Assembly (NCBI GenBank): GCA_009746045.1
Contig: RPFO01000076.1
Location: forward strand, 5,007,275 to 5,071,274
DNA: 64,000 bases
Source: Mesostigma viride
Lineage: Eukaryota; Streptophyta; Mesostigmatophyceae; Mesostigmatales; Mesostigmataceae
Reading direction: 5' to 3'
In this document: piece by piece, positions 26,262-58,112 of the stretch
Layout: each line of letters opens with the position of its first letter
Numbering within the stretch: position 1 is the stretch's first letter
Program-made: the position numbers and the translations under genes
Notes under the pieces: model-generated
Databases searched by the model: none
Told to the model about the DNA's origin: nothing
Seen by the model: only the letters and a program-made list of their open reading frames with translations

Positions 26262-26262
26262 T

Positions 26263-29761: not shown

Positions 29762-29765
29762 AATC

Positions 29766-35262: not shown

Positions 35263-36534
35263 ATGCCTCCTTCACGACGCCGCACCTCCCGGGCGCGGGA
35301 TGCGCTGCCTAGTGGCGCCCCTGCGCCGCGTCGGTCCTTACGCATCGCGGCGCACCTGCAGGAGATGGGCGACCTGGACGACGGCGGTCGTGGCGCCCCT
35401 GTGCCACTCTCGCTTGTGTGCGAGGTCTGCCACAGTGGTGAGGATGCCCCCCGTCTCCTTGTGTGTGATTCGTGCCAATGCGGCTGGCACACGCGCTGCT
35501 TGGTCCCGCCCCTCTTCCGGCTGCCTCCCCCGGGTCCTTGGGCGTGCCCTCATTGCGTGGCCCCGCCTCGGCCGTCCCTAGGCTCCCGACGCGCGGCCGT
35601 GTCGACCCCGGGATCCCATTCGGCCCGCGCCCCCTCCCGCAGCCCCTCGCTGGACCCTCTCCTGGGCCTTGCGGCCCTCGTGGAGGGTTCCACACCGTGC
35701 TCCCGCTCTCCCCGCGCCGTCACGTCCGGCCCCTCCGCGGGGTCCCCTGGCCCTGCCCCGCCTAGCTCTGGGGATCCACCTCCGGCCAGCACGGCGGTGG
35801 CCACTGACCTGCGTCCTCCTGTGCTTGAGGGGTCCCTGGCGGCTCTCCTCCCTGAGGCTGTGGGACACCCTGCGGCGACTCCTGTGGTGGGCCCCTGGTC
35901 GGCCGCGCTTGGGTCCCACGACTTCTCCGTTTGGCCCCCCACCAACATTGCGGGCGTCAGCGCGCTCCGGCACGCCACGTTCTCTTGGCTGTATTGCCCC
36001 TTGCTGTTGGACGCTGTCGGCTTGCACGCGGCGTTTCCTACGCTCCCACGGCCCCCTGAATTTAGTGCCCTTGTGGTTCGTGTCCGGCACATGCTGCAGG
36101 CAGCCTCCCCCCCTGTCCTTGCCTCCACGCTTTGGGGGTTTGTCCTCGAGGACTACCATGCCGGCGGCCGCCTGCCTTGGCACCTGCCCGCGGTGCGCCA
36201 AGAATGGCTCCTGAATCTGGACGCTCAAGTGGCGCAGGCGGTGGTGCTCTTTGCTACAGGGCTTGCCGTGCAGGCCCAGCAGGCCGCCCGTGCGACATAT
36301 CTCGCTGGGGGGGCCACCGACCACGCCTTGCTCGATCGCCCTCAGCTGCACACGTTTCTTGCCTCTGCCGGGCCCGGCTCGGCCGGCCTTGTTGCGCAGG
36401 CCCACGGGCGCTTGACTACGGCGGTCACCCCAGCGCAAGCCGCCCGCCTGCGCGTTGACTTCGGGGCTCCTGTCACCGTGCACGCCGGCGACCTGGTTCT
36501 GTACGATGCGGGGGGGGGCGTGTTCTTGAGCTGA
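35263..36534 (+). CDS. LINE N-terminal protein segment with PHD finger
   Basis: The ATG at 35263 (MPPSRRRTSRARDALPSG) is chosen because the frame upstream runs through GC-rich leader. A C4HC3 PHD finger follows about 50 residues in: CEVC, then CDSCQCGWHTRC, then WACPHC. PHD fingers read histone H3 tails in chromatin. Next is a long Pro/Ser/Ala-rich linker and a conserved-looking part (VSALRHATFSWLYCPLLLDA; AQVAQAVVLFATGLAVQAQQ). The stop at 36532 comes just after a run of nine G, and the other frame across that run reads straight on into the next ORF, so the break may be an indel. Confidence 0.75.
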   Translation: MPPSRRRTSRARDALPSGAPAPRRSLRIAAHLQEMGDLDDGGRGAPVPLSLVCEVCHSGEDAPRLLVCDSCQCGWHTRCLVPPLFRLPPPGPWACPHCVAPPRPSLGSRRAAVSTPGSHSARAPSRSPSLDPLLGLAALVEGSTPCSRSPRAVTSGPSAGSPGPAPPSSGDPPPASTAVATDLRPPVLEGSLAALLPEAVGHPAATPVVGPWSAALGSHDFSVWPPTNIAGVSALRHATFSWLYCPLLLDAVGLHAAFPTLPRPPEFSALVVRVRHMLQAASPPVLASTLWGFVLEDYHAGGRLPWHLPAVRQEWLLNLDAQVAQAVVLFATGLAVQAQQAARATYLAGGATDHALLDRPQLHTFLASAGPGSAGLVAQAHGRLTTAVTPAQAARLRVDFGAPVTVHAGDLVLYDAGGGVFLS

Positions 36535-36548
36535 GCGCGGGTGCGGCC

Positions 36549-38111: not shown

Positions 38112-40468
38112 AGGATCTGCCGAACGCCTCCTCCACCGGCCCCTCAGGCTGGCGCTACGAGCACCTCTCCGTGATGGCGGGCCATGGCGGGGCGACCGCA
38201 CTCTTTGAGGCTGCCGCCGACTTGGCCGCGGGGTCCCTGGCCCCCGCGGCGCGCCCTTGGCTGGCTGGGGCACGCCTCATTGCCCTCCTGAAAGACGACG
38301 TCCCCCCGCCTGCTGGCCGCGTTCGTCCCATTGCTTGCGGCGAGGTCCTACGCAAGCTGGTGAGTAAGGTCATTTGTCGCCAAAAGGCCCCCGAGTTTCG
38401 CGCCTACTTCTGCCCCAACCGGAGTGATACTGAGGAGTCCGTCGCGGCCCAGCTTGGCGTCGCCACCAAAGGGGGCAGCGACATCATCGTGCACACAGTT
38501 CAGGCCTACCTCGAGACGCATCCGACCCATGTGGCGCTGAAGGTGGATTGCCACAATGCGTTCAATGCTGTCACCAAGGCTAGCATCTTTGAGGCCGTCG
38601 GCGAGGCGTTCCCTGACCTTCTTGCGTGGACAGCAGCCTGCTACGGCGAACCCACTCAACTCTCCTTCCTCATGGAGGATGGGACGTTCGCCGACATCGC
38701 TTCCCGCACGGGAACCCAGCAAGGTGACCCCCTCGGCCCCTTTTACCTGTCTGCCCCGCTGCACAAGGCTCTCCAAGGTGTCCACGCTGCGCACCCGGAT
38801 GTCGTGCTCCTCGCCTACATGGACGATATCCATGCCCTTGGCCCGGCCGACGCTGTGGTTGCCGCCCTGGCTGCCCTTGAAGTGGCCATGGCGGCCATCA
38901 ACCTTCGGCTCACCCTCCCCAAGTGTGCAGTCTTTTCGCCCCAGGGGGACTGCTCTGGCTTCCCCGCGGCTATCCCGGGGGCATTGGCGCGGGCGCGTGG
39001 TTTCTCGTGCCTGGGCGTCCCTGTGGGTGACCCTGACTACGTCGAAGAGGAGCTCCGGGCCACCGTGGAACAGCGCACCCATGTCCTTGAGACTTGGGCG
39101 CGCCTCAAGGACCCCCAGACCAAAGGGCTCCTCCTGTGGTTTTGCGCCCACCCGCGGGTGGTTCACTGGCTCCGTGGCGCTCCCCCCCACTTGGTGCGGC
39201 TTGCCGCGGAAGGCCATGACGAGCGCATTCAGGCCGCCTTGCAGGTGCTCCTCCCCGGCCCTAGCCTGCCAGCTCACTCCATGCGCTTGGCCACCCTCCC
39301 CTGCCGCATGGGCGGGTGTGGGCTCACCCGCGCCGCCCGCCTCGCCCCCGCCGCCTTCCTTGGCTCTGTTGCTCAGGCCTGGGCGGAGATCCGCCGGTTG
39401 GTCCCCAGCGCCGTCAGCGCCATTCCCGACTTGGTCACCCCATCCCCCTTCCCCTTTGTGCAGGCTGTGCAGGATTCTTACCTCGGGATCCAGCAGGCTT
39501 GCGACCTCGTCCGCCCCGCTCAGGCCGTCCACCGTCGCCTGCCCCGGGGCACGCCCGGCGTGTCCACTGTCGTCAGTCCTAGTGTCTTCCCTGCCTGCGT
39601 TCATGAAAAACAACAAAAGACCTACGCGGGTATACTACACTGTGCCGACTGGATGGGTCTGCATGCGAGCTTGAACGATCAGGGGAAGGCTTGGCTTCAC
39701 TCCGTTTCCCTTGAGGGGAGCGTGGGGTCCGCATTCCTGCGCGCCCTCCCCATGAGCCCTTTGTTCACACTGGTTCCGGCCCTTTACGCCATCGCTCTCC
39801 GCCACCAGCTCTTTGCCCCGCAACCTCTCATCACGGCGGGTGCGTCCTGCGGCAGCTGCGGGCTTGCTCTGGATACTACTGGGACGCACTACATCGCGTG
39901 CATGGGTGGCCAGCAGAACCAGAACTGGTTCCTCTATCTCCATACCGCTCTCCTCCGGGTGGTGTGTGCCATGGTTCGGTCGGTCTTTCCCCACTCCACC
40001 ATTAAGTGCGAGGACGCGGATGGGGCCGCCCTCTACTCACCCAACCACCGCCCCGACATTACCGTGCTTGACTACGACGGGCAGGGTTGCCACCTGCTCA
40101 TCGATGTCTCCGTGGCTCGGCCGCTTTCCGGTCGCCACATCCTCCGGGCGGCTGTGGATGCCGGCGCTGCTGCCGCTGTGGCTGAGCGCGACAAGTTTGC
40201 CTCCTACGGCAATGTGGGGCCCCACCGGGTCATCCCCTTTGTCCTTGAGGAGTTCGGGGCCATGGGCCCCAAGACAGCGGAGTTTTTCCACGAGTGCTGC
40301 CAGCGCCGTGAAGACCGCCTCGACCTCGAGGGTCAGACCGCCCCGTGGTCGGCCCGCACGTGGTCCTCGTATTGGCGGCAGCGTCTGTCACTCGCCCTCA
40401 CTCGCACCGTGGCTGATGTGTTATTCCGCCGCACCCGGGCCGACTTTGTCGCGACCCATGCGGTCTAG
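38081..40468 (+). CDS. LINE reverse transcriptase with CCHC motif and restriction-like endonuclease
   Basis: From 38105: GPSGWRYEHLSVMAG (early RT motif), RPIACGEVLRKLVSKVI, HVALKVDCHNAFNAV (motif A, Asp), SRTGTQQGDPLGPFYL (motif B), VLLAYMDDIHALGP (catalytic YMDD), FSCLGVPVG. Near residue 580 there is C-x2-C-x10-H-x4-C (SCGSCGLALDTTGTHYIAC), then about 60 residues on HRPDITVLDYDG and LLIDVSV, matching the RPD-D core of the PD-(D/E)XK endonuclease of R2-like LINEs. That nuclease nicks the target for target-primed reverse transcription. No APE endonuclease is seen. The frame is uninterrupted to the stop. Confidence 0.85.
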   Translation: MDLDIFTAVLKDLPNASSTGPSGWRYEHLSVMAGHGGATALFEAAADLAAGSLAPAARPWLAGARLIALLKDDVPPPAGRVRPIACGEVLRKLVSKVICRQKAPEFRAYFCPNRSDTEESVAAQLGVATKGGSDIIVHTVQAYLETHPTHVALKVDCHNAFNAVTKASIFEAVGEAFPDLLAWTAACYGEPTQLSFLMEDGTFADIASRTGTQQGDPLGPFYLSAPLHKALQGVHAAHPDVVLLAYMDDIHALGPADAVVAALAALEVAMAAINLRLTLPKCAVFSPQGDCSGFPAAIPGALARARGFSCLGVPVGDPDYVEEELRATVEQRTHVLETWARLKDPQTKGLLLWFCAHPRVVHWLRGAPPHLVRLAAEGHDERIQAALQVLLPGPSLPAHSMRLATLPCRMGGCGLTRAARLAPAAFLGSVAQAWAEIRRLVPSAVSAIPDLVTPSPFPFVQAVQDSYLGIQQACDLVRPAQAVHRRLPRGTPGVSTVVSPSVFPACVHEKQQKTYAGILHCADWMGLHASLNDQGKAWLHSVSLEGSVGSAFLRALPMSPLFTLVPALYAIALRHQLFAPQPLITAGASCGSCGLALDTTGTHYIACMGGQQNQNWFLYLHTALLRVVCAMVRSVFPHSTIKCEDADGAALYSPNHRPDITVLDYDGQGCHLLIDVSVARPLSGRHILRAAVDAGAAAAVAERDKFASYGNVGPHRVIPFVLEEFGAMGPKTAEFFHECCQRREDRLDLEGQTAPWSARTWSSYWRQRLSLALTRTVADVLFRRTRADFVATHAV

Positions 40469-43955: not shown

Positions 43956-44273
43956 TGTTACGTCGCGTAACTTTTGTTGTTGTTACGGACGTAAATTAGG
44001 TCCTTTGTTGCCTCAGCCATTCCGGAGCAGTTCGCTGACTTTCCTAGGCTTACGTGTAGTTAGGACCTTTTGGCCGGTCGGTACCGGGCCTTGTGACGTG
44101 GCAAGTGTACAGTGTGGTGGTTCGGTGCAGTCGCGCCGCGCTGCGTACTTTAGTAGTGGTCCTTTTATCTTGCGTGTGAACCTTGTGGACGTGCGTTGGT
44201 CCTGTAGGCGAGGGTCGATGTCGGCCCGAGCATACACGCCTGTCGGCGATCATTTATGCAGCAGTTGTCCTTC
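43956..44273 (+). repeat. G1 3' LTR, left part
   Basis: Starts TGTTACGTCGCG and runs to GCAGTTGTCCTTC, where the methyltransferase element is inserted. Its continuation is 58113-58368. Last four bases CTTC are the target duplication. Confidence 0.8.
44270..44273. other. Target-site duplication CTTC, left copy
   Basis: CTTC at 44270-44273 and 58109-58112 flank the element at 44274-58108. Joining the flanks across one CTTC gives CCTTCGTGAATGGCACTCGG, which aligns with CCCTCGTGTTGTCACTCGG of the 5' LTR near 17432. Confidence 0.85.
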
Positions 44274-44417
44274 TGTCGCGTCTGCGTACCACAATCTCCG
44301 GCGCCACCATGGCGGCAGCCTGGCCATGCTCAGCTTTGGTAAAACCCAAATGAGCTGAGCTGACGTGCCTGCCTTAACTGCATGCCCGGTGGGGTGGGCG
44401 AGGACCTGTCCCATGAT
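44274..44417 (-). repeat. Terminal repeat A, outer copy (empty TTAA site)
   Basis: Plus strand runs TGTCGCGTCTGCG to CCCATGAT. Contains GCCTTAACTGC at 44371-44381, the empty form of the TTAA element site occupied in the inner copy. Confidence 0.85.
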
Positions 44418-45588
44418 TAGTCTCTTCGAGTAACGAAAGGAGGGCTCTCAGCCGAGGACAAGGAACTGTCCCTCGTGCCTGATGACCACCTTATTGCCTC
44501 CCCTGCTATAGAATACTGCTTTCACAACACACACTTTGCACAGTCTGATGATGAAGCCGCACATGCGGAATTTATTGAGAAAGTTATTACAATTACAACA
44601 CGTTGATAGTCTCAATATCGATGCACTCCATGCTCACGAGCCCGCAGTTAGGCAGCGCTCCATGACATGCTACTGGCCTTGCTTCCAAGGAAAGGGAGAA
44701 ACACGAAGGCCACTAACGAGAGACTCGAAGAGACTACACGCTACGTGAGAGTCCTCTTCGACTATGAACCAAACCATTCGTCATGCCACACGCATGACAC
44801 ACGCCACACTTGTCAGTCCAGCCAGGAATGCCCAAACTATCTTGCTGCCTGAACCATGCAAATAGAAACTGCATTCCAGTTGCCGTCCTGGCTTTCTACC
44901 ACACATGCCAACAAAAGCAGGAAGGCATCCCGACAAATCTAAATTGCTACCCTGTTGCCGATCTCATCTCCTAGAGGCTCCGGCATTTCTGTCCCTGGGA
45001 ATGTCCGGCATTGAGTCACGACCACCAAGGTCGAAGCATAATATCCTTCAAACAATCTGCACGCTCACACCTTGCGTGTGAGTGGCCCAGCAAACATTGC
45101 TTCTAATCTTTCCTTTCTAGAAAAAATCCCTTTGTAGGGCTGCCAGCGATTTCGCATTCATTCCAGCGATCTGGCTCCGCACCGCAAATTGTCCTTTTCC
45201 ATTTTCTGTCCAGTCCTCATAACGTTGACCCGCTATTCTACACCACAAAGACACCTGGCCTGTCAATAGCCTCGGCGCTGTTGAAGTCCAGCAGTCCAGC
45301 TCCAGCTCCAGCTCCAGCTCCAGCTGTCCACTAACTCGCGTATGATCCTCTCGACGCTGTGCACTTGTGCTGCCGTCCGCTCAAGTACGTCTGTGCTGCG
45401 CGCCCAGCCGTGCCTGGCCCGGCGCGCGCGCACGTGCACTTTCGTCCGCTCTTATGCTGTAAGTGCTAGTGTCCCCCCCCCGGTCACTAGCCTTTGTCGA
45501 AAATGCGCAGAATTTAACAAATTCCTTGCGCACGTCACCGGTCTTGTGCATAGTGGGCGCCCGGATGACACAGCTCGCGTCCGTGACA
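44418..45588 (-). repeat. Terminal repeat B, inner/3' copy
   Basis: 1171 bp from TAGTCTCTTCGAG to CGTCCGTGACA on plus. Contains a (CCAGCT)n hexamer run at 45298-45325. The plus strand carries a protein-like frame (SAEDKELSLVPDDHLIASPA; YCFHNTHFAQSDDEAAHAEF) of unknown origin at about 44453-44590; a single-base deletion relative to B at 57106 shifts it. Confidence 0.85.
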
Positions 45589-45590
45589 GC

Positions 45591-47986
45591 TGTCGCGTCT
45601 GCGTACCACAATCTCCGGCGCCACCATGGCGGCAGCCTGGCCATGCTCAGCTTTGGTAAAACCCAAATGAGCTGAGCTGACGTGCCTGCCCACCGGGGTC
45701 CGGACACACCGGAATTATTTCGCGCCAAAAAATTCGCGCCGGTACCCGGCACGTGAAATTGTGGTGCACGATGCGCGTAACCCTTGCGCCAAGTTGGCCA
45801 TGGCGACGTGCGTTAGGTAATAAATGCAGTAATATGGCAATAAGACCGCAGAAAATTATGCAGATGCGTCAAATCAAAGTTTCATCATGATCTTGCGTTG
45901 CCGAAGATGCATTATTGACGAGATCGATGCCATTTTTCATCCGCGTTTGCGAGGGGGTCTGGCCCGGAAATCTTGCCGCAACGAATAAGCAGCAATACAT
46001 GCCTACAGCGATAATTACAAAGGTTCTTAGTCCCTAGCGATGCAGAAAGCAACGTTCATTAACGGGGAGATTGAAAATGTTAAAGAACCTTTTATTTTAT
46101 TACTTTTCCTCGTCATTTTCGGAAAGAAAACGCCAGGTCCTGCTTTATGCGCTGTCAACCCGTCCATGGGTGGCTGGCATTTCTTGCGCGCCTTGTCAGG
46201 AAAGATAGCATGCCATTGTACGTCTATTATCCAGTGGTTACCCCCGAAGTCTATTGCGTTTAGAAATCCCTTTATTCTAAGCTTTCAGCACGGTTTCCTG
46301 GAAGGGTGCGTTGTTTTGTTCGCCGCTTGCTGCATGCACGTCTCTAGTTTTCCGGCAGCTTTCAACCGATTCGCTTACGTTATGCGTGGCAAGCTCTGAA
46401 ATCCTGTCTAGGATTGGGTAATATCAAGGTAAGCTGCTACGTTAATGTAATGATATATGGAAGGATTTGGATGGCAGAGTGCTTATATTGCATATTCAAC
46501 ACGTACCCCGGCATGCCTCGAGGGCGGCATGCAACAAGCTGGCGAGCATATGAACCGTGCGTCTCAACGTGCTGGGAAACAAGGTGGCTATACTTCTCTT
46601 GCTGGCCATGCTTTGTATATGTGTAAGCTATGCTTACGTGTGTGTCCTCTTTAGATTTGTGGATCACAGCCACTATGCTTCACAATCAATGTGCTCTCAA
46701 GGATGCTAGCCATGCTTATGAGGATGGCTGCAAGCCATTTCTCTTATGGCTTTGCTGTATTTTGTGTTTGCGCTTACAGTTCTGTTTTGTTGGTTGGTTT
46801 TTGAACGGGGTGATGTGAACCTGCAGGGTTAGAACATTGTGTTATTATTGCTGGTTGATTGAGGCATCATCCTCTACTCTAAGTCAGCATAGCACGTGTA
46901 GATGAGCATGCTGTTTATGCACCTTATTGTTGAGCATGGTTTACAACCATGGTGAGGTGTGGGGTGTGGCTAGCATGTACGAGTCACCCATCTAATCCCA
47001 CATGTTTCTGTTGCTATTGAACGTTGCTTGGGCCTCTAAACATTTCTGTTATTACCAATGAAGATTGCCAACTATGCTACCATAGTGTGGTGCTGCATGC
47101 TATGAATGACCTCTCTAGTACTCAAGGCTCATGCTCAGCTTGATCCTGCATTTGGTGGCTGTTTGTATAACTCAATTGGCAGCCGTCTATGTTAGGATTC
47201 TGATGATTTGTGGTGGGCAGGTGATGAAAAGGGTTATGTTTGAGCTCATGCCAGTCTATACTAGGGTTGAGGGGTGGCAGTTGAGGACACTAGTTTATGC
47301 CATCAGTCTAGCTCAGAATGACCTGAATTTTGATTCCAAGATAGTTTGCATGATAAATAACTTGCTGGCACCTTGTTTGCCCCACTTGGTGGTGGGCAAG
47401 GTTGTGATTGGTGCAGCCATTTGGAATAAAACCGTATTTTCGTGCATTTTTTTTTTCATACAAAAGAACATAACTGTTCACATACGTGGTCAGAATGAGC
47501 TGAAAATTGGTCCCATTGATATTCCCACCCTGTGGAAGTTATTTTTGACTCCCTGGGCCCAACCCATGCGTATTTGATTTGATTTTTTTTTTTTAGTCAC
47601 AAAAAAGACGTATTTTTCGGTAAACTGCATAAGTATGCCCAGACGTGCGATTTTGGTGCTGCAAATTAGCTCCATTCTTTGGTCTGGGTGGGGATTTGAC
47701 AAAAATGTGGTGTTTGGTCCACAAGTGTGGGGGGGTTGTCCAAGGCAATCCGTGCTGTTAGGGGGTGTGCGCGCTAAAAATAGCTCCGTGCACATGTATG
47801 GTGATGGACCTTGAACTCAAAAAGTAGCCAGATGCATGCCCAAGGGTCATATTTATGGCCCCCCATCATAATTTGCATTGCCAGAATGGGTATTGAGTGC
47901 AAAACATGTGTATTCAATTTGGGGGGGTTCAGGTGTGTCCGGACCCCTGCATGCCCGGTGGGGTGGGCGAGGACCTGTCCCATGAT
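45591..47986 (-). repeat. Terminal repeat A, inner copy, interrupted by a TTAA element
   Basis: 45591-45690 matches 44274-44373 and 47947-47986 matches 44378-44417 without differences. The inserted block lies exactly where the outer copy has TTAA. Its high-coordinate end (CATGAT) abuts a pyrimidine run that is the polypurine tract on the minus strand. Confidence 0.85.
45691..47946 (-). mobile_element. TTAA-family DNA element with 16-bp perfect terminal inverted repeats
   Basis: GGGGTCCGGACACACC at 45695-45710 and its exact inverse at 47932-47947. Next to the left repeat are TTATTTCGCGCC and AAAAAATTCGCGCC words and, further in, GTTGGCCATGGCGAC, inverted relative to the same blocks at 16880-16975, so this is a member of the TTAA family in reverse. 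The flanking TTAA itself is missing: CACC on the left, nothing on the right. About 2.2 kb of AT-rich interior has no convincing gene; the longest frames (47131-47577 plus) show no domain. Confidence 0.7.
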
Positions 47987-47998
47987 TCCCCCCCTCGC
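47987..47998 (-). other. Polypurine tract of the methyltransferase element
   Basis: On the minus strand GCGAGGGGGGGA precedes repeat A. This is the expected plus-strand priming site, so reverse transcription should place the upstream LTR boundary at the start of A. Confidence 0.65.
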
Positions 47999-48014
47999 TG
48001 GCTCTCATGGCTCC

Positions 48015-49544
48015 TCACATGGCCAGCGACCGTGCCAACACCACAGCAGCTAAGGAAATGGTGACGCTACTGGTTGCGAAACGGGCAGCGACACAAACTG
48101 GGCAAAACCACTGGCCCGCTGGCACGGTGGTGAGCGCTGGCTGCAAGCAGTGCATGTGCCACCCACAATTACAGTGATCACACAGCAACATGGTATCCCC
48201 CTGGTCTACTCGATGGCAAACCTGACACTGTGCGTCCTTGACCCGCCTGGCCGTGTGCGGGGCGAGGGCAGGCAATAAGTTGGGCAACGAACACGGACTG
48301 AGGTTGCTTACGTTATCGGTGGTGCGACTGCCGTCGACGCCCTCCAAAATGGCGACCCCAGATGGCTTGATGGCGACGATCCGCAAGATGGTCGGCCCCG
48401 CAGTCACGTCAAGAGTGTCGGTCAGCTGCGTGCGGAGAAATACGAACTGCCCCGGACGAAAATGCAGCTGACGGGCCATGTAAGCGCCCCCCCGGCGCTG
48501 AGCGTAGCGCAGGGTATCTCGGTGCTGGGCGATGAACAAGTTGTTCATGGCGATGGGCATAACCTTGCGGAAAGTAGCCGCCCGGGCGGTCACCTCAGCC
48601 AGAAACTGACTGGCGTTGTCAAACGCCATAGGGGTGGGGTGTGCACTCTGCGCCTCCGTGGGGAGCAAGGGTGCGCGCCCAAACAACAGGAAATACGGGG
48701 AGAAACAGGCGAGCGACTCCTGGGGTGACATTCGGTAACCCATGGCTATCCACGCCAGTTCACGATCCCACATAGTGAATGATGCTGACTGCAGGCTCCA
48801 CTTGCGCAAAGCCTGCTTGACAGTCTGCACCAATCTCTCAGCCAAACCATTGGCCTGAGGATGCTCGCGAGAAGTGCGACGGTGATCAATGAGACATGCA
48901 TCCAACAATTCCTGAAATTCCCCACGAAACTCCCCGCCCTGGTCGGTGACCACCTCCGCGGGGGCGCCAAACCTGGCGATGATGTCGGCGAAGTGCTTGG
49001 CGGTGGTGGCGGCCTGCTTGTCAGCAATGGGGATGAGCTCGACCCACTTGCTAAAACTTTCGACACACACCATGACATACTTGTGGCCATCTGCACTTTC
49101 ATCAAAGGGCCCACACAGGTCTACGTGCCAGCGGTAGAAGAGCCCTCTGATGGGTAGGCTCATCAATTCTTTCGCATCGTGGTCCACATTGAACCGGGCC
49201 TTCACCCGGGCACACTGCGCGCAGCGAGCGACGACCTGCGCGACTGTGGCACGCATGCCGTTCCACCAATAAGAGGCGCGCACTAGCGCCAAAGTGCGGT
49301 TACCACCCAGGTGGCCATACCGCTCATGGGCTTGCTGGACGATGGCGACCCGCTTGTGAGGCGGCGGCACCACCACTTTGCGCTTGCCGATCATTTTGTG
49401 GAGGACCCCGGCATCCCACGAGTAGGTGACCGCCCTATGTTGCACCCTATTCAACTCAGCGTCACGCTGGGCTGAGGACCAATCAACCGGGGTGGGGTGA
49501 GAGCTATCCCTTGGACCTGCTCCAACACACGCCCATCGAGCCAC
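48015..49544 (-). CDS. Ty3-type integrase with C-terminal PHD finger
   Basis: 509 codons as opened; coding sense probably starts near residue 13 (DSSHPTPVDWSSAQRDAELN), where it overlaps the RT ORF in another frame. Zinc finger H73/H78/C108/C111. Catalytic core D142 (WHVDLCGPF), D201 (VTDQGGEF) and E236 (HPQANGLAERLV), giving DD35E. Residues 355-405 (RPGQFVFLRT; GPTILRIVAIKPSGVAILEG) form the small C-terminal beta domain. Residues 440-484 are a complete C4HC3 PHD finger (C440 C443 C455 C458 H463 C466 C481 C484). Integrases of chromoviruses carry a chromodomain here; a PHD could likewise steer insertion to modified H3 tails. No chromodomain is seen. Confidence 0.88.
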   Translation of the reverse strand: MARWACVGAGPRDSSHPTPVDWSSAQRDAELNRVQHRAVTYSWDAGVLHKMIGKRKVVVPPPHKRVAIVQQAHERYGHLGGNRTLALVRASYWWNGMRATVAQVVARCAQCARVKARFNVDHDAKELMSLPIRGLFYRWHVDLCGPFDESADGHKYVMVCVESFSKWVELIPIADKQAATTAKHFADIIARFGAPAEVVTDQGGEFRGEFQELLDACLIDHRRTSREHPQANGLAERLVQTVKQALRKWSLQSASFTMWDRELAWIAMGYRMSPQESLACFSPYFLLFGRAPLLPTEAQSAHPTPMAFDNASQFLAEVTARAATFRKVMPIAMNNLFIAQHRDTLRYAQRRGGAYMARQLHFRPGQFVFLRTQLTDTLDVTAGPTILRIVAIKPSGVAILEGVDGSRTTDNVSNLSPCSLPNLLPALAPHTARRVKDAQCQVCHRVDQGDTMLLCDHCNCGWHMHCLQPALTTVPAGQWFCPVCVAARFATSSVTISLAAVVLARSLAM

Positions 49545-51640
49545 ACATCACCCATGTTGCATTCCACTGTGAGATGGCCAACCAACACCACCTGGAGTGC
49601 TAGGTATCGTGCCAAGGTATTGTCAATGTCAAAGGACGGAGAATTACCTTCCTCCAACGCGAGGAGGCCAGCGGCAGGGGTGAAGGGAGAAGGGTGAACT
49701 GCATTGCAGCTTGCCGCAAAGTCTGCGACTGTATACTCGACTGCGCGCCAGTCTGCCTCGGCGTCGGCGTCAGCGAAGCCTGCAGCATTAACAAAAACCA
49801 CAGACCCAGGCGAGCTCTCGGCCCCTAGGGCCCGCGCACCAGTGTTGTCAACAGTGGTTGGTAGAGCATACCTGGACAGGACGTCCGCGTTGGAGTGATC
49901 CACACCTGGCCGATGGACGATTGTCAGGTGGTACTCCTGAATGATCATTGCCCACCGGGCCAGCTTACCCGTGAGTTTGTCGCTGGTCATCAACCACAAT
50001 AAGGGCTGGTGATCAGTGACAAGTGTGAACACCCGCCCAAAGAGATATGGCCTGAAGTGCTTGATGGCCCACACAACGGCTAACGCTTCCCCCTCGTAGG
50101 AAGAGTACCGACTCTCGGCAGAGTTGTTACTCCGACTAGCGTACGCGATAACATGCTCGCGCCCCGCATCGTCCTTTTGTGCTAGCACAGCCCCTAGGCC
50201 TACCTTGGACCAATCGGTGTAAAGAATGAAGGGCAGAGCATAGTCGGGGGCGCGTAGGATAGGAGCGGCAGTCAGTTCCTGTTTGATGGTATCGATGGCT
50301 CGCTGCTGAGCCGGACCCCACGCCCAGACATTGCCCTTCTTCAACAACTCAGTCAGGGGTTTGACTTTGGTGCTGAAATTCTGAATATATCCTCGATAAT
50401 AGCCAGCTAGCCCGAGATACGCGCGCACCCCCGAGATGTCGATGGGCACTGCGGCGTTGCTGATGGCTTCCACTTTGGCTGCCTCAGGGGTCCGGCCACC
50501 TGGTACAATCTGATGACCAAGAAACCCTATGGTCTGTTGGGCGAACTTGCACTTTTCAGGGTGCAGCCGCAGGTTGGCCTTATCTAGGGCGATCCGAACC
50601 TGATCGAGGTGAGCTAAGTGCTGGTCAAATGTCTCGCTAAAGACAATGACATCGTCTATGTAGCAGGCTGCAAATGGCAACCCTGCCAGCACCTGGTCCA
50701 TGGCACGTTGGAACACCGCACTAGCGTTGCGATGTCCGAATGGCATGCGAACCCACTCGTACAGACGGGTCCCACCCCAAAAGGCCAGCTTGCGCTGATC
50801 TGCCTCTACGACCTTGATCTGATGGAAGCCGCTACGCAAATCTAGCGACGACACATACTTGACCTGGGGAGATATTTTATCCAAAACATCATCGACCCGA
50901 GGCATGGGGTACCTATCAACAGGAGTGTGCGCGTTCAGCTGACGCAGGTCAGTGGCCATGCGCATACCTGTCCACTCGCCTGTGATGGTATCCTTCTTGG
51001 GTGCGACCACCGTGGCAGCTGCATAACTGGAGGATGAAGCGCGGATGATCCCAGCTGCCTCTAGCTCTCGACAGTTAGCATCTACGAATTCCAGCTCAGC
51101 CAAGCTCAGCCTATGCTGCCGCCTGAATAAGGGCTGATCCGTATCTAGTGGGACCCCCATGCAGCCCCCGTTGTAGCACCCTAGTTCTTCACTGCTGAAA
51201 GCGAATACTGAGCGTGCAGAATGCAACCAGTGCTCCATAGCCTTGCGTTGCGTGGCGGTGAGGTGCTCACCTATGGCCCATATGTGAGAGGCAGCAGGAT
51301 CTGCGACTGCGGCACTCCTACTGTCGACACAAGGCCCCCGGACAGCGGCATCGTGGAAAAGGGAAAATGCGGCTACACCGGGTGTGACGCTCACCTGCTG
51401 AATGGCACGGACTGCGCGACCGACCGATTGCTGCAGGGTGGGCGCTCCAGCGAACACCGTGCTGGACAACAAGGACGTCATGAGGATAACGCTCCATAGT
51501 TGAAGCAGCCGCGATCTCCATGGCGACCCAGTGCCGCCGGACGCTGTTGGCCGGACACCAGCCGCGTGGGCACTGACAGGCGGTGGCGGTGTGGGGATAT
51601 CTCCCCCACCCTGGCGCACTTGCATTGCGGCCCGCAGAAC
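49451..51640 (-). CDS. Ty3-type reverse transcriptase and RNase H
   Basis: Part of an 877-codon frame that opens at 52084. Its first ~150 residues complete the methyltransferase. A hydrophobic stretch (LLQLWSVILMTSLLSSTVFA, residues 193-212) follows. RT motifs: YPMPRVDDVLDKIS, YVSSLDLRSGFHQIKVV (motif A), LYEWVRMPFGHRNASAVFQR (motif B), CYIDDVIVFS (catalytic YIDD, 475-478), KCKFAQQTIGFLGHQI. RNase H: ILYTDWSKVGLGAVLA (Asp), SYEGEALAVVWAIKHFRPYL (Glu), TLVTDHQPLLWL (Asp). The frame ends about 150 residues after RNase H, overlapping the integrase frame by 94 bp. Confidence 0.9.
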   Translation of the reverse strand, partial: VLRAAMQVRQGGGDIPTPPPPVSAHAAGVRPTASGGTGSPWRSRLLQLWSVILMTSLLSSTVFAGAPTLQQSVGRAVRAIQQVSVTPGVAAFSLFHDAAVRGPCVDSRSAAVADPAASHIWAIGEHLTATQRKAMEHWLHSARSVFAFSSEELGCYNGGCMGVPLDTDQPLFRRQHRLSLAELEFVDANCRELEAAGIIRASSSSYAAATVVAPKKDTITGEWTGMRMATDLRQLNAHTPVDRYPMPRVDDVLDKISPQVKYVSSLDLRSGFHQIKVVEADQRKLAFWGGTRLYEWVRMPFGHRNASAVFQRAMDQVLAGLPFAACYIDDVIVFSETFDQHLAHLDQVRIALDKANLRLHPEKCKFAQQTIGFLGHQIVPGGRTPEAAKVEAISNAAVPIDISGVRAYLGLAGYYRGYIQNFSTKVKPLTELLKKGNVWAWGPAQQRAIDTIKQELTAAPILRAPDYALPFILYTDWSKVGLGAVLAQKDDAGREHVIAYASRSNNSAESRYSSYEGEALAVVWAIKHFRPYLFGRVFTLVTDHQPLLWLMTSDKLTGKLARWAMIIQEYHLTIVHRPGVDHSNADVLSRYALPTTVDNTGARALGAESSPGSVVFVNAAGFADADAEADWRAVEYTVADFAASCNAVHPSPFTPAAGLLALEEGNSPSFDIDNTLARYLALQVVLVGHLTVECNMGDVWLDGRVLEQVQGIALTPPRLIGPQPSVTLS

Positions 51641-51649
51641 ATACCCAAC

Positions 51650-52587
51650 CTGGAAGGCTGACATGGCTTGCCCAACGAGAGACCACCTAGTGGCCTCTAA
51701 AACCCCCTCAGCGGCGGACGCCCCCACATGGAACCCCATGCTCACCTCCCGAAACTCAGCGGGCGGCTGCACCAACAAACCCGTACCGGTGTCCCATACC
51801 AAACCCTTGCCCCGGTCCCTGTAGGCCGATGACCCCTGGTAACTAACCAAGGTGGGAAGAGCGCACATAGGCTTACCTACGTGATTGACGGCGCGTAAGG
51901 GTGCCGATCGGCGACGTCTACCCGCTGCGTGACCAAATGTGGTGGCAGCGCCACCTCCGCGGGCATGCCGTCGTGCTGTCGTGTGATCGCATCTACCACT
52001 GCCTGGATGGTGGTGGTGAGTGCAAGGTTGGTCCAGAATGCGCGGTACCTGTGGGTGAGCCCGCCCAATCCTGCATTGTCGCACGTGACTGGTGCCCCTA
52101 AGATGTCCACGATCTGGGCCCAGTCCTTCCTCACTACCTCGTGAGGGCTGTCGTCGGCCACCACGTTCTCAAAAAGATACGCTAGTGGCTGGTCCTGCAG
52201 CTGCTGCAAGAGTCCAACGACTCGAAGCAGATCCCAAAACAACCCGCTCCTAGGATCCGCAAGCCCGCGTCCTACGCCGGCCTGACTCAACCCTTGACAT
52301 TCCCAGCCCGCGAGGACGAGGTCTATCCTCTTGTGCCGCCTCAAAAGGCCTCGCACATGAACCTCCCCAATGGCACGGATATCCTGAGGGCACTCCCCAA
52401 ACGGATCTGTCCACGCAGACGGAGGAAACTGAAATGGATACAGGGCAGACAGCTGGGCACAGTGATGCCTATACACTGCCCGAGCGGTAGGAGACGGCTC
52501 TACGGCGATCAACGTGTGGCACGTACCGCCTGCAGCGAGAAAGCCAGCCAGCCCCCCTCCCATCCCAGCAAACAATTCTAGCAATAC
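51650..52587 (-). CDS. DNMT3-like C5-cytosine DNA methyltransferase domain
   Basis: Transfers methyl from S-adenosylmethionine to cytosine C5. In the 610-codon frame from 53709: motif I LLELFAGMGGGL (376-387), VEP acidic motif II (403-405), DLVLAGWECQGLS (motif IV, catalytic C471), SGLFWDLLRVV (motif V-like), LAYLFENVV (motif VI, ENV 514-516) and THRYRAFWTNL (motif VIII, 552-562). That frame stops at 51877. The remaining motifs are in the overlapping next frame: ALPTLVSYQGSSAYR (target-recognition side), AEFREVSMGF (motif IX-like) and RWSLVGQAM (motif X-like). FENVV and RYRAFWTNL resemble DNMT3/DRM enzymes, but order is canonical I to X. The usual PC of motif IV is EC here. One frame change near 51890-51920 is needed for a whole enzyme. 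Confidence 0.85.
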
Positions 52588-53709
52588 AACCCCTTCGGAC
52601 AAGACCCGCGACTCTGCCACAACATCGGCACAGAAGTTACCTTCGGTTGTCGCGACAGCCACTTGTGACTGCGATTGCCGCGGGAGATGAGAGAGTTGTT
52701 GCTGCCGCACCGCGTTGGTGACGTGCTGACGCAAAAGGGCCTGCCGCGCTTGCGGCTGCTGTCGCGCCGCCCACGTGCTGTGCAATGAGGCCCGTCCCAC
52801 CAGCGCTGTTGGGATGCACGGCCGATGCTTATCACGCACAGCCCCCCCAGCTGCCGTGACCTCCCCCATCCGTACCTCCACCACCGCGTCGTGCGAGCCA
52901 GCCTCGACCCGGTTGACCGTCGAGACACGCACTGCCCCATTGTCCGAGCTGTAGCAGCTCACCGGGATGCTTGCTTGGCGCATGGCGTCACCGTCTCTGT
53001 CAACGATGTACACCGCGCGGCCTTCCCACATGCGTACCTCGAGCCGCATGGGAAACATGACCTCCATGCCGACCAGCACGTCATACGATGACTGCTCGGT
53101 CACAAGGGCATTCACAGGGATGCAGGCCATGTCGGATGGCCTGAGCGGGTTGAGGATGACCATTACCTGGACCGCAGTCATGGCAAAGGGTTTAGCGGCA
53201 GGGCCCTGCCAGCCCGCCACGGACACATGACTGTCCCGCAGCCCGCCATTCTCCCTGGTTAGGTTGAGCAACTGGGCCAGCCGAGCACTGATAACGAGTG
53301 GCTGGGCCCCGCTGTCCAGTTTCACGACCAATTCATGGTCAGTACTGTAGACCACGTTGCTCAGGGGCTCCCCGTGCCCCTGCGCCTGAAATGCCATTGC
53401 TGGCTCGCCATCCGGATATGAGGTGACAGTGGGTGCCCTAGGCACTACGCACGCCCGCTGCGCGGTGTCCAAGACACCATGAGCGACATGACCCACGATT
53501 ACCGAAGCCGATGCAGGGCGATGCCCGACAAATGTGGCTGTCTCAGCGTTGTGCAACCTACGGGCGTCCATTGTGTCAGCGTACCGCTGTACCTCTGACG
53601 CATGCGACCCGAGCACCTCCACGGCCCGCTGACCGAACCACTCGACCACTTGCCGGGGAGTGTATGCAGGCGTGTCCACGACCGACGGCATAGGGTATAA
53701 TGGCAACAA
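51877..53709 (-). CDS. Protease-methyltransferase ORF of the Ty3-type element
   Basis: 610 codons from a TTG-type opening; the first ATG in frame is MPSVVDTPAY at residue 7. Residues 125-225 form a retropepsin-like domain: HELVVKLDSGAQPLVISARL (catalytic DSG 132-134) and SYDVLVGMEVMFPMRLEVRM as the second signature. Residues 230-370 are a linker rich in Gln/Arg. Residues 374-610 are the methyltransferase described separately. The protease lies upstream of the methyltransferase and RT, so the enzyme would be made as part of Pol and could be released by the protease. Stops upstream (TAA TGA) separate it from Gag. Confidence 0.8.
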   Translation of the reverse strand: MLPLYPMPSVVDTPAYTPRQVVEWFGQRAVEVLGSHASEVQRYADTMDARRLHNAETATFVGHRPASASVIVGHVAHGVLDTAQRACVVPRAPTVTSYPDGEPAMAFQAQGHGEPLSNVVYSTDHELVVKLDSGAQPLVISARLAQLLNLTRENGGLRDSHVSVAGWQGPAAKPFAMTAVQVMVILNPLRPSDMACIPVNALVTEQSSYDVLVGMEVMFPMRLEVRMWEGRAVYIVDRDGDAMRQASIPVSCYSSDNGAVRVSTVNRVEAGSHDAVVEVRMGEVTAAGGAVRDKHRPCIPTALVGRASLHSTWAARQQPQARQALLRQHVTNAVRQQQLSHLPRQSQSQVAVATTEGNFCADVVAESRVLSEGVVLLELFAGMGGGLAGFLAAGGTCHTLIAVEPSPTARAVYRHHCAQLSALYPFQFPPSAWTDPFGECPQDIRAIGEVHVRGLLRRHKRIDLVLAGWECQGLSQAGVGRGLADPRSGLFWDLLRVVGLLQQLQDQPLAYLFENVVADDSPHEVVRKDWAQIVDILGAPVTCDNAGLGGLTHRYRAFWTNLALTTTIQAVVDAITRQHDGMPAEVALPPHLVTQRVDVADRHPYAPSIT

Positions 53710-53733
53710 CCTGCGCCGCTGCTCTCATTACAA

Positions 53734-54501
53734 TTCGTTCAAGTGGCCCGCCGGAGCGGCTGTACAATTTTTCCCAGTGAGCGCGCTGCCAAGTGTACTT
53801 GTGGGCAAATTTTTAGGTGCCCCGTCACTTCGAGGTACTAAAAATTAGGCTACGGTACGAATTCAGCGAATTTCAGCGAATTTTCAGTCGAACCAAAGGA
53901 AGTGACGCCAACTACCAAAAAGTTTCCGTTACGAATTTTCAGCCCAACACTCGCGCAAAATGAAGTGACGGCAACTACCAAAAAGTTTCCGTTACGGATT
54001 TTCACTCCCACACGTTTGCACAAAAGACTTGACGGCAACTACCAAAAAGTTTCCGTTACGAATTTTCAGTCCCACACTTCGCGCAAATTTTAGTAGGGCT
54101 GCACGCAAGCTACCTTTCAAAATTTTGCGCTAGTATGGAACGCATTTCATTCGTCTGGAGGAACGCTGCCCGCCAACTACCCCCGTTCAGAAAGTTCCGC
54201 CGAAATTTACCCGAGATTTGGAAATCTGAACGTCCGCGCAAATTTTAGTAGGGCTGCACGCAAGCTACCTTTCAAAATTTTGCGCAAGTATGGAACGCAA
54301 TTCATTCGTCCGGAGGAATGCTGCTCGTCAACTGCCCCCGTTCAGAAAGTTGCGCCGAACTTTACTTGAGATTTGGAAATCTGAACGTGCGGTTGGAGTT
54401 TCGCGGGGAAACCCAAGTTCCCAAGTAATTCACCAATGACGCGCTTCGAACACTTGTCCGCTAAAACCTAAGCAGCCGCTCCGGCTGGCCACTTAAACGA
54501 A
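53734..54501. mobile_element. Small inverted-repeat element between Gag and Pol
   Basis: 29-bp terminal inverted repeats, TTCGTTCAAGTGGCCCGCCG... at 53734-53762 and its inverse at 54473-54501, with two mismatches. The interior contains two tandem families: about 62-63 bp x3 (53900-54085, with CAACTACCAAAAAGTTTCC) and 155 bp x2 (54081-54235 and 54236-54390). I see no target duplication. No coding capacity, but the right inverted repeat supplies the last codons and stop of Gag. Confidence 0.7.
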
Positions 54502-56684
54502 ACTTGATGTGCCCCAGCAGGATTGTCGTGTTCCAGGGTGGAGCCGGTCCGAGCGGGAGCCATGCGAAAGGACTGAGGCAGCTGCCCCACAGTCTCACTT
54601 GGCTGCCCCACCTGAAACGACGGCGGTGCACGTGCTTGCTTCCCTCGCGCGCCAACTGCATGGATGTCCAACGCCATCACGTCGGCTGGCCGCCAGAAGT
54701 CCTCGTCCCTGTATTGAACCTGCGATCCCCCATCCTCCCTTTCACGTCCCCCCGCCTCGCCCGTCGGCTGAATGATGACCACCCCCGCGTCCACCTTCTT
54801 GTCCTCCACGTCCGCAAAGTGCACCCCCGGCGCTGGGCACTGCCCCGCCAGATGGGTGCGGACCGTTGCCGGGTGTGACTTCTTACACGCCTTGGGACAA
54901 TCACGTTTGATGTGCCCATCCTGACCGCACAGGAAGCAGCCCGATTTGCGCGCATCCGTCCTACCCGTCTGTGAGGACGTGCCCCCCCCAGCTCGCGTCG
55001 GCGGAGCGGCAGCGTCCTTGTTGCCGCCAGCGGCGTTACCCTGGGTTGCATCGTGCGATGAGGCGTTGCGAGACCCCCCTTGGTTCCTGCTAGCACCGTG
55101 GCCGCCTTGCGGGCGCGCTTGTCTTGTGGCAGACGACTCACCCGACTTGGCCTTGGTCAGCGCGTCGACCTTGGCCTGCAGCTCGGCCACCACCGTGCTT
55201 ACCGAGATCCGGCCTTGCGCGTGTCGTCGCATCATGGCCCTGACCTCAATGCACAGTGACCGCAGTCGCCACGGCTGGCCGTTGGGCGGCGTGAGCAGCT
55301 CCATCTCCTTAGAGCCTAGCGCTTGCAGCCATTTCTGACACGCCAGCTTTTCGGACCAGTCCTCCACTTCGCCGGCGAACTCCATGAGGCGCTCGTAAGA
55401 TTGCTCCGGGGTTTCACCCTCGGCTATCTTGAAATTGCGCCACTCACGCTCTGCCTTGATGGTCTCCACCGGGTATTCCTGGCGAAGGAGGCCCCACAGT
55501 TCCTCGGCAGGGTCGACACCATACATGATGTTGTCATAGTCGGGCTGGCCACGCCCGTCGAAGCCGAACCACACGTCCGTGTGACGCGTGTACAGCGAGA
55601 CCTCTCTCCACTGCTCCACCAGCCTAGCCACTCGCCTCAGCGTAAGACCGTGAAAGAAGAAATGCATGTTGTTCATCACAAACTCATGCATTACAGCGCC
55701 TTGCGTAGTCATGTATTGCAGATCAATCCATGACTTGTACGCGTTGTAGGCCTGCGCCAGCGTGGCCAGATTGCCGGTTGTGGAGAACTTCTCGCGCATG
55801 TCCACCCGTGGTAGGGTGGGCATCTTTGCGCCTTCAGGTATGAGGCGCACCCTTTGCGGGTACTGCACCCCATCGGCATCCTCCGGCGGTCGCTGAGCTG
55901 CGCGTCCCTGCGCCAGCGTGCTTGGGCGTGCTGCCTCCCGTACTCGGAAAGCCAGCGGCGTGGTTATGTCCTCCATGGGCGGAATGCGCCCAATTGGCAC
56001 ACTTGACCACCGTGCAGTCGACCCGCTGGTCAGCGCCCCACCGCCTCGCCCAAACGGAATTGAGACCCCGCCTGGCAGCATGCGTCCTGGTGCACCCCTG
56101 CGTGGGTCCATCGCGCGCGCCAGCCCTGCCCCGTTCTCCTCGTGCAATCCGTCTCGCGCTTGATCGAAAGGCAGGCGCCTGGGCGCCAGCGTATACTCGC
56201 CCCGTGGCTGACCATCCGCCTCACCAAGCAAGTCGTGTTGGGTTAGCGACCCAGCCAAAACCCCCGGTTCCATCGAAGCCCTTCCCGCCGCATTACCTGA
56301 GGTTGGCGGCTGGTCCCGCTCCCTCGGCTCCGCGGCAACACCATTGGGGCCCGGCATCGATGCCTGCCCGTCCCATGGTGTGGACTGCAGATGACGACCC
56401 TCTACGGCCACCAATCTGTCGGTCACTTCCCGCATTTGCAGCGCCAGTTGCTGCTGCAACTGTTGCGACTGTTGCTGCATCTGCGCTTGCATCTGCGCGA
56501 ACAGCGCCACCATACTCAGCGGCGCTTCTTGGTCGCGACTCTCACCCACTGCGGGTACGGCGGGAGGAATCCCGCCATTCGACCCCGGAGCGGACGTGTC
56601 GGCATCTGCTCTATTTGCATCCGCCATGGCTCGAGTCTGCGCTCGCGTCAGTGGCATGCACCAGCTGACCGATGGGCAAAACAA
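54468..56684 (-). CDS. Gag of the Ty3-type methyltransferase element
   Basis: 738 codons; an ATG at 56627 region (MADANRADADTSAPGS) is a plausible start because it lies 19 residues in and the sequence before it is less conserved-looking. Residues about 55-100 are Gln-rich coiled coil (FAQMQAQMQQQSQQLQQQLA). A Pro/Arg-rich matrix-like part is followed by a capsid-like domain (YNAYKSWIDLQYM; DPAEELWGLLRQEYPVETIK; EQSYERLMEFAGEVEDWSEK). A CCHC knuckle (CFLCGQDGHIKRDC) is at about 581-594. The final FKWPAGAAA and stop lie within a terminal inverted repeat of the small element at 53734-54501, so the native C terminus is uncertain. Confidence 0.8.
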   Translation of the reverse strand: MFCPSVSWCMPLTRAQTRAMADANRADADTSAPGSNGGIPPAVPAVGESRDQEAPLSMVALFAQMQAQMQQQSQQLQQQLALQMREVTDRLVAVEGRHLQSTPWDGQASMPGPNGVAAEPRERDQPPTSGNAAGRASMEPGVLAGSLTQHDLLGEADGQPRGEYTLAPRRLPFDQARDGLHEENGAGLARAMDPRRGAPGRMLPGGVSIPFGRGGGALTSGSTARWSSVPIGRIPPMEDITTPLAFRVREAARPSTLAQGRAAQRPPEDADGVQYPQRVRLIPEGAKMPTLPRVDMREKFSTTGNLATLAQAYNAYKSWIDLQYMTTQGAVMHEFVMNNMHFFFHGLTLRRVARLVEQWREVSLYTRHTDVWFGFDGRGQPDYDNIMYGVDPAEELWGLLRQEYPVETIKAEREWRNFKIAEGETPEQSYERLMEFAGEVEDWSEKLACQKWLQALGSKEMELLTPPNGQPWRLRSLCIEVRAMMRRHAQGRISVSTVVAELQAKVDALTKAKSGESSATRQARPQGGHGASRNQGGSRNASSHDATQGNAAGGNKDAAAPPTRAGGGTSSQTGRTDARKSGCFLCGQDGHIKRDCPKACKKSHPATVRTHLAGQCPAPGVHFADVEDKKVDAGVVIIQPTGEAGGREREDGGSQVQYRDEDFWRPADVMALDIHAVGARGKQARAPPSFQVGQPSETVGQLPQSFRMAPARTGSTLEHDNPAGAHQVSFKWPAGAAA

Positions 56685-56936
56685 GAACCAACAAGCCTAG
56701 GTTTCGCTAAGAAGCAACAACCAAAGGCTTTATAACAGGCGTCAAGGATAACGACTCGACTAGCCTGCCAGAAAAAGACAAGAGCCAGCAAATTCTGGCT
56801 AGTTCTATTTTCTTAAAATCTGTCTCAAGACACTTCCTTTACAAACTGTCAGCCAGGCCGTTCCCTGTACTGCTGATGGTTGATAAACACTAAAGCCAAC
56901 GTCTTGGCTTCAAACAGAAGGAAGCAGACTACCGGG
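56685..56936 (-). other. Leader between repeat B and Gag
   Basis: 252 bp. On the minus strand repeat B ends GAGACTA and the leader opens CCCGGTAGTCTGC, so GACTACC-C-GGTAGTC forms a 15-bp hairpin across the border. There is no TGG-type tRNA primer site next to the repeat; the hairpin might indicate another priming mode, which is speculation. Confidence 0.5.
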
Positions 56937-58108
56937 TAGTCTCTTCGAGTAACGAAAGGAGGGCTCTCAGCCGAGGACAAGGAACTGTCCCTCGTGCCTG
57001 ATGACCACCTTATTGCCTCCCCTGCTATAGAATACTGCTTTCACAACACACACTTTGCACAGTCTGATGATGAAGCCGCACATGCGGAATTTATTGAGAA
57101 AGTTATTTACAATTACAACACGTTGATAGTCTCAATATCGATGCACTCCATGCTCACGAGCCCGCAGTTAGGCAGCGCTCCATGACATGCTACTGGCCTT
57201 GCTTCCAAGGAAAGGGAGAAACACGAAGGCCACTAACGAGAGACTCGAAGAGACTACACGCTACGTGAGAGTCCTCTTCGACTATGAACCAAACCATTCG
57301 TCATGCCACACGCATGACACACGCCACACTTGTCAGTCCAGCCAGGAATGCCCAAACTATCTTGCTGCCTGAACCATGCAAATAGAAACTGCATTCCAGT
57401 TGCCGTCCTGGCTTTCTACCACACATGCCAACAAAAGCAGGAAGGCATCCCGACAAATCTAAATTGCTACCCTGTTGCCGATCTCATCTCCTAGAGGCTC
57501 CGGCATTTCTGTCCCTGGGAATGTCCGGCATTGAGTCACGACCACCAAGGTCGAAGCATAATATCCTTCAAACAATCTGCACGCTCACACCTTGCGTGTG
57601 AGTGGCCCAGCAAACATTGCTTCTAATCTTTCCTTTCTAGAAAAAATCCCTTTGTAGGGCTGCCAGCGATTTCGCATTCATTCCAGCGATCTGGCTCCGC
57701 ACCGCAAATTGTCCTTTTCCATTTTCTGTCCAGTCCTCATAACGTTGACCCGCTATTCTACACCACAAAGACACCTGGCCTGTCAATAGCCTCGGCGCTG
57801 TTGAAGTCCAGCAGTCCAGCTCCAGCTCCAGCTCCAGCTCCAGCTGTCCACTAACTCGCGTATGATCCTCTCGACGCTGTGCACTTGTGCTGCCGTCCGC
57901 TCAAGTACGTCTGTGCTGCGCGCCCAGCCGTGCCTGGCCCGGCGCGCGCGCACGTGCACTTTCGTCCGCTCTTATGCTGTAAGTGCTAGTGTCCCCCCCC
58001 CGGTCACTAGCCTTTGTCGAAAATGCGCAGAATTTAACAAATTCCTTGCGCACGTCACCGGTCTTGTGCATAGTGGGCGCCCGGATGACACAGCTCGCGT
58101 CCGTGACA
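56937..58108 (-). repeat. Terminal repeat B, 5' copy
   Basis: 1172 bp, minus-strand start TGTCACGGACGCG. Differs from 44418-45588 by one extra T in TTATTTAC near 57106. No copy of repeat A follows it, unlike at the 3' side. Confidence 0.88.
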
Positions 58109-58112
58109 CTTC

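Follow-up and report, generated by a model that had tools for sequence, protein, structure and literature searches.

Retrotransposons that carry a cytosine methyltransferase of their own are already known, as the initial annotation of this locus had stated, and two of them bear closely on the element reported here, which lies in a 64,000-nucleotide stretch of the Mesostigma viride genome (assembly GCA_009746045.1, contig RPFO01000076.1, positions 5,007,275 to 5,071,274; hereafter the window). KnitGypsy-Dnmt3 of Klebsormidium nitens is a Gypsy long terminal repeat (LTR) element with an intronless DNMT3 in its Pol open reading frame (ORF), purifying selection on the methyltransferase (Ka/Ks below 0.2) and DIRS-like repeats; SymbioDIRS-Dnmt3 of Symbiodinium likewise carries DNMT3 in Pol, has repeats in the order A-coding-B-A-B, and includes two copies with DNA methylation activity in yeast (PMC5890265). 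In the DIRS type, methylation of the cDNA is a likely role (PMC5890265). A 2025 survey, citing de Mendoza 2018, reports that streptophytes and dinoflagellates have LTR Copia and DIRS elements with DNMT3. Matched by description only, the Mesostigma element and KnitGypsy-Dnmt3 share a Gypsy Pol, DNMT3 and DIRS-like repeats. The main text on KnitGypsy-Dnmt3 does not mention a PHD finger, whereas one is present here, and the portions of that account at hand are without the target-site duplications, the palindromic B|A junction and the variable joint found in Mesostigma. The Symbiodinium element differs in having a tyrosine recombinase where the present one has a DDE integrase. Among the papers listed by full-text searches of the open-licence literature we recognised no other DDE-integrase element with split repeats and no other PHD finger beside a retroelement methyltransferase. 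With the principle known, the additions made here are the PHD finger, a Glu-Cys catalytic motif and our interpretation of the repeats, and it is this interpretation of integration that forms the new part of the finding.

Domain searches and direct reading identified the minus strand of positions 44274-58108 as a Ty3-type retrotransposon, multi-copy and bounded by target-site duplications [Table 1]. The full explanation that we favour, and hold to be probable, is that of a young Ty3 family with a selected DNMT3-type domain that integrates from an opened two-LTR circle. Ty3/Gypsy elements are characterized by the order reverse transcriptase (RT)-RNase H-integrase, a CCHC Gag, a polypurine tract, a 4-bp duplication and TG...CA ends, all of which recur in the window element, where Pfam finds an rve integrase in the expected order. 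The element differs from ordinary Ty3/Gypsy members in its additional methyltransferase, in a PHD finger occupying the position of the chromodomain of chromoviruses, and in lacking an ordinary LTR pair: no complete LTR stands at both ends, the 5' end consisting of repeat A alone and repeat B flanking the second copy of A on both sides. The resulting split direct repeats, A-coding-B-A-B, are those of DIRS elements. Two whole Pol frames, searched at E up to 0.01, gave no phage-integrase-type domain, such as a tyrosine recombinase would have, and contain rve and H2C2 instead. An Rfam scan of the sequence gave no match, and CpG observed/expected (0.86 in the element, 0.76 in the remaining window) revealed no depletion.

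The cytosine methyltransferase that had been proposed inside Pol was borne out, the DNA_methylase model PF00145 scoring 43.1 bits in ORFa against a cut-off of 22, with RT, RNase H and rve matches in the ORFs of the same element. Motifs I (ELFAGMGG), IV (GWECQGLS), VI (FENV) and VIII (HRYRAFWTN) had been placed correctly in this minus-strand frame and, together with IX and X, they follow one another in the order of a C5 methyltransferase, with the catalytic Cys in motif IV. Motifs IX and X do lie in the overlapping frame in the window copy, as annotated; this is not, however, a trait of the element, as the entire methyltransferase occupies one open frame in a sister copy as well as in two further subfamilies, and C1107 (locus L086) reads through the corresponding place in a single frame. 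Since sister copies have one frame, the division over two frames reflects a defect in the window copy or in its assembly. When codon usage was scored with the ORFs of the element as training set, the coding signal changed frame twice, passing from a into b at about 51,900 and from b into c at about 49,510. A programmed -1 frameshift was considered and rejected: the sole heptamer of the sought form in the a/b overlap, at 52121, falls ahead of motif VIII and therefore cannot explain a switch near 51,900. A IX-X spacing pattern, drawn up post hoc after inspection of the sequence, matched ORFb once in the six window frames (mean of 0.01 in 100 shuffles); the strong conservation of this stretch in the three subfamilies is better evidence. 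Taken alone, the IX/X half had no significant Pfam match, 139 of 500 shuffles equalled its pairwise score with DNMT3A (not significant), and its four PDB matches, all EspG3 chains (best E 0.012), were taken as chance. Joining both halves with an X raised the Pfam score slightly, the best stretches stopping short of the second half. The predicted structure of frame a alone had a mean pLDDT of 36.7, too low to be used. The annotated order of protease, methyltransferase, RT/RNase H, integrase and PHD held, with the protease reduced to a protease-like region in which a DSG motif is present and the aspartyl-protease models PF13650 and PF13975 both remain under their curated cut-offs.

A search of the 440-Mb assembly (2243 contigs) returned at least 127 PF00145 matches. 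Among the matches listed, which do not include the window copy, 28 rows resembled the window element (profile positions ~3-114) and 30 were shorter (~61-116). Seventeen of these 58 rows were taken for reading, 13 of the longer and 4 of the shorter kind, and all 17 loci had GWECQG and, within a single frame, motifs I, VI and VIII; motifs IX/X were present in 16, the frame of L087 stopping early. As the loci were picked by their methyltransferase match, they are uninformative on how often the domain is missing. They fall into three subfamilies: F1, with one locus (C1107) plus the window copy; F2, with twelve loci, six of which have a 1642-aa Pol frame; and F3, with four loci, among them C111, a single 2074-aa frame running from the CCHC knuckle through the PHD finger. 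With at least three subfamilies of the genome having methyltransferase, RT/RNase H, integrase and PHD in this order, the arrangement is not confined to the window copy; for each of F1, F2 and F3, Pfam found the PHD finger itself behind the integrase of one member. F3 has a DSG motif upstream of the methyltransferase; in F2, the 389-aa ORF that precedes the Pol frame showed none. Between subfamilies the methyltransferase is 57-71% identical, with pN of 0.20-0.31 and pS of 0.74-0.78; synonymous sites are saturated, which precludes a dN/dS number, but the ratio is far below 1. Saturation at this level of protein identity shows, as far as comparison of sequences goes, that the domain has been kept by selection. 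Ten F2 pieces had 10 of their 30 transitions relative to the majority row at CpG, which makes up 14.8% of bases; nine of the ten came from two rows, and this excess is suggestive only.

Eight copies were examined for their ends, and both ends were readable in four (the window copy, C2100, C777 and C1), some of which hold later insertions in A or B. All four have the order A-coding-polypurine tract-B-GC-A-B, start with TGTC, end with GACA and are flanked by perfect 4-bp target duplications (GAAG, CTTG, TCTC and CATA, respectively). Lack of target-site duplication is a trait of the DIRS order. Repeat A is present twice in six copies, namely the window copy, C2100, C1690 and C777 of F2, and C1 and C111 of F3, whose A1 and A2 differ over the aligned stretches by 0, 2, 0, 3, 1 and 0 substitutions, respectively; activity has therefore been recent, and the family is young. 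In the three subfamilies B1 meets A2 at GACA-GC-TGTC, a palindrome that measures 10 nt in F1 and F3 and extends to 16 nt in F2, and the GC of this junction is absent from the integrated ends. Directly ahead of every B1 listed, in all three subfamilies, stands AGCGA followed by 7 or 8 G (the B1 match of C2156 begins two bases late). At the A2|B2 joint the start of B is constant and the end of A is variable. The five F2 joints take three forms, ...CTT (two), ...CTTA (two) and ...CTTATCCA (one); F3 joints read ...CTTTCTTT (two) and the window joint ...GAGACT (one). BLAST found the same B start in five F2 B2 copies, and one of six further pieces taken for joints, C1613, has such a joint. In C111 (L100) a polypurine tract-B-GC unit lies immediately ahead of A1, a layout like that of tandem copies with one LTR in common, and farther up the same contig there is another methyltransferase match.

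From this anatomy we infer that reverse transcription would follow the ordinary LTR scheme, in which the position of the polypurine tract would determine where B begins, and the primer side where A, loosely, ends. The LTR would then be B-GC-A and the linear cDNA [B-GC-A]-coding-[B-GC-A], whose ends may be joined into an A|B joint with the slop typical of end joining. Integrase would open the resulting two-LTR circle inside one LTR, at the palindrome GACA-GC-TGTC and away from the A|B joint, a single cut that would yield 3'-CA ends, 2-nt overhangs, a 4-bp target duplication and the arrangement A-coding-B-GC-A-B with the GC lost at the ends. The parts of this scheme seen directly are the end sequences, the duplications and the joints. 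Foamy-virus and HIV-1 integrases are reported to cut palindromic two-LTR junctions (PMC1180852, PMC1905944), and the likeness, as far as those accounts describe it, lies in a palindrome cut inside a circle with both 3' ends processed together. They differ in that the viral palindrome is the LTR-LTR joint, whereas here it would lie inside the LTR with the joint elsewhere; on our reading each insertion would therefore carry a permanent mark. That a DDE-integrase element should normally integrate from an end-joined circle opened at a palindrome inside its LTR, such that the split repeats are a trace of the circle and not of a tyrosine recombinase and the methyltransferase could methylate the circle before insertion, is a proposal that we make tentatively, as a serious possibility. 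The methyltransferase probably acts on the element's own cDNA or fresh insertions, and the PHD finger behind the integrase may, as PHD fingers do, read a histone mark at the target.

The main rival of the opened circle is a DIRS-like origin, in which a circle would be templated by the internal B-A during reverse transcription and the whole A-coding-B-A-B arrangement inherited from copy to copy. The repeat order is indeed that of DIRS elements and was so described for the Klebsormidium element (de Mendoza 2018, PMC5890265), and a separate DIRS-like split-repeat element is present in the window at 28377-30339. Such a route is nonetheless unlikely in view of the DDE (rve) integrase found in place of a tyrosine recombinase, of the target duplications in every copy with readable ends, and of A|B joints that vary inside one subfamily, which would not be expected of a templated joint. 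A different doubt concerns the methyltransferase, which might be a captured passenger dispensable for transposition and retained by chance in young copies. Copies within a subfamily carry too few changes to reveal selection and the activity of the domain is putative, but the protein identity of 57-71% between subfamilies whose synonymous sites are saturated, with motif residues largely invariant, makes this very improbable.

Judged by its profile and motifs the domain appears to be DNMT3-type, in keeping with the DNMT3-like label given initially, with tree support that is not decisive and the donor left undecided. The three-subfamily profile matched DNMT3A best among solved structures in the PDB (5.5e-7), then DNMT3C, DNMT3B and HhaI (2.5e-5), and motif VIII, HR.R.[FY]W.N, is common to the element and DNMT3A and is not found in DNMT1, DNMT2, HhaI or HaeIII. 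In a 17-row tree the three subfamilies formed one clade (100/100) beside DNMT3A and five phage enzymes (92/91, not starred), and the X-joined window domain fell on the same side (82/91) in a tree of 13 rows. The donor could be imagined as a phage or bacterial DNMT3-type methylase and not a host DNMT3: among six enzymes compared pairwise, the Dcm of phage S-CBS2 matched best (score 147; DNMT3A, 100), PHROG 116 was matched at E=3.8e-21, and a clade of the element with DNMT3A only was not recovered in the 17-row tree, yet not rejected (p-AU 0.19). We regard such a donor as rather doubtful, given the DNMT3 enzymes heading the structure matches and a tree made unsure by long branches and biased composition. 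Phage records matching ORFa at E up to 0.01 numbered 3 of 50,697, two of them from the same phage; no relative was found in viral contigs searched with ORFa, ORFb and ORFc or in prokaryote contigs searched with ORFb; and exact matches to the degenerate pattern GWECQG[LF] comprised 6 viral and 54 prokaryote stretches, none of the 60 a methyltransferase (tblastn, E<0.05). Pro almost invariably stands before the Cys of motif IV. Here Glu takes its place in all 18 rows aligned, within a conserved GWECQG, and this E-C motif in three subfamilies could be taken to mean that the substrate is RNA or an RNA-DNA hybrid and not double-stranded DNA. The DNMT3-type motif VIII and the position in the 17-row tree, which is not beside the RNA methyltransferase DNMT2, render that substrate improbable.

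A number of observations weigh against the explanation favoured here. On the side of the enzyme, the Glu in motif IV is one; in a tree of 7 rows the element fell off the DNMT3A side, with a starred 97/98 branch; in larger trees DNMT3A and phage enzymes grouped without the element (93/89 and 92/97); and in pairwise alignments two of three phage enzymes as well as HhaI outscored DNMT3A. The Klebsormidium Gypsy enzyme showed no activity in yeast, a result its authors call inconclusive (PMC5890265), and methylation by the Mesostigma domain is putative. On the side of integration, the opening of a circle by integrase would follow from repeat anatomy, no circle having been seen. The remaining four copies examined yielded no readable pair of ends (B2 of C1690 is truncated, C1837 and C1107 have no usable pair, and C111 runs into a neighbouring unit); the joint search pattern demanded the B start; and five of the six further pieces taken for joints are without the A-end/B stretch. 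No tRNA primer site starting with TGG was seen adjoining A1. Self-priming was also considered and, like a tRNA primer site, was not retained, a short palindrome being all that was seen adjoining A1.

Table 1. Features of the Mesostigma element, in window coordinates and ordered from its 5' to its 3' end; those of the retropepsin-like region were converted from residues 130-222.
Feature	Position	Strand	Evidence
Left target-site duplication GAAG	58109..58112	-	direct reading; same as 44270-44273
Repeat A1, 5' element end, starts TGTC	56937..58108	-	no mismatch to A2 in 1171 aligned bases, a single 1-nt gap
Gag ORF, CCHC zinc knuckle	54468..56696	-	PF00098 8.8e-06
Tandem repeats separating Gag from Pol	53885..54389	-	TRF and repeat search
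ORFa: protease-like region and methyltransferase motifs I-VIII	51877..53724	-	Pfam
Retropepsin-like region, DSG motif	53059..53337	-	PF13650 0.0012, PF13975 0.0021
Methyltransferase motifs I, IV (GWECQGLS), VI, VIII	51886..52647	-	PF00145 4.6e-11; PDB DNMT3 matches
Methyltransferase motifs IX, X, next frame	51611..51883	-	spacing pattern; one frame in sister copies
ORFb: methyltransferase end, RT, RNase H	49451..52168	-	RVT_1 7.4e-28, RT_RNaseH 1.9e-38
ORFc: integrase (H2C2, rve), C-terminal PHD finger	48015..49547	-	5.2e-17, 1.7e-12, 6.4e-09
PHD finger	48093..48227	-	PF00628 6.4e-09, ORFc residues 441-485
Polypurine tract AGCGAGGGGGGG, adjoins B1	47988..47999	-	direct reading
Repeat B1, first part	47947..47987	-	41/41 bases identical to B2
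Nested insertion interrupting B1, inverted ends GGGTCCGGACACACC	45691..47946	.	direct reading
Repeat B1, second part	45590..45690	-	101/101 bases identical to B2
GC spacer in palindrome GACA-GC-TGTC, B1/A2 junction	45589..45590	-	direct reading
Repeat A2	44418..45588	-	repeat comparison with A1
Repeat B2, 3' element end, ends GACA	44274..44417	-	repeat comparison
Right target-site duplication GAAG	44270..44273	-	direct reading

The nested insertion in B1 measures 2256 bp; at this point B2 reads TTAA, which is found at neither end of the insertion in B1. Elsewhere in the window, the separate 2-kb element at 28377-30339 has split repeats A-B-A-B (393 bp at 99.7% and 129 bp at 100%) and sits within an older repeat whose uninterrupted form is found at 15441-16993; AATC is common to its ends and its B|A join, which gives it a DIRS-like look, and it has no clear target duplication. 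An LTR-like pair of 833 bp at 99.8% identity spans 21775-27107 with Pol_BBD and Copia Gag matches between (24551-26149), and is probably a Copia-type element. The successive ORFs in 35077-40465 show cysteines in a PHD-like pattern, a RING finger (3.3e-10) and an RT (7.2e-13); they probably belong to a non-LTR element and adjoin a 231-bp tandem repeat at 34484-35137. Other methyltransferase matches in the genome include at least 10 places with one common score (L069-L075 among them) that hold an HhaI-type enzyme in a 364-aa frame, the seven frames read being nearly identical and perhaps part of a viral or other mobile repeat, and L093 (C1562), whose 1059-aa frame has a motif IX/X of canonical appearance (EAARLQGFPDDF...) and is possibly a host DNMT.

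A retrotransposon with its own cytosine methyltransferase is a paradox, because methylation silences transposons, and the Mesostigma family provides a further Gypsy-type case whose three or more subfamilies and recent copies are material for testing the purpose of the enzyme. Should its insertions indeed derive from opened circles, each of them would record a circle as a duplicated B repeat. Such a genome-wide natural record would reopen the question of whether integrases can use two-LTR circles, and would explain in a simple way how split direct repeats could arise outside DIRS.

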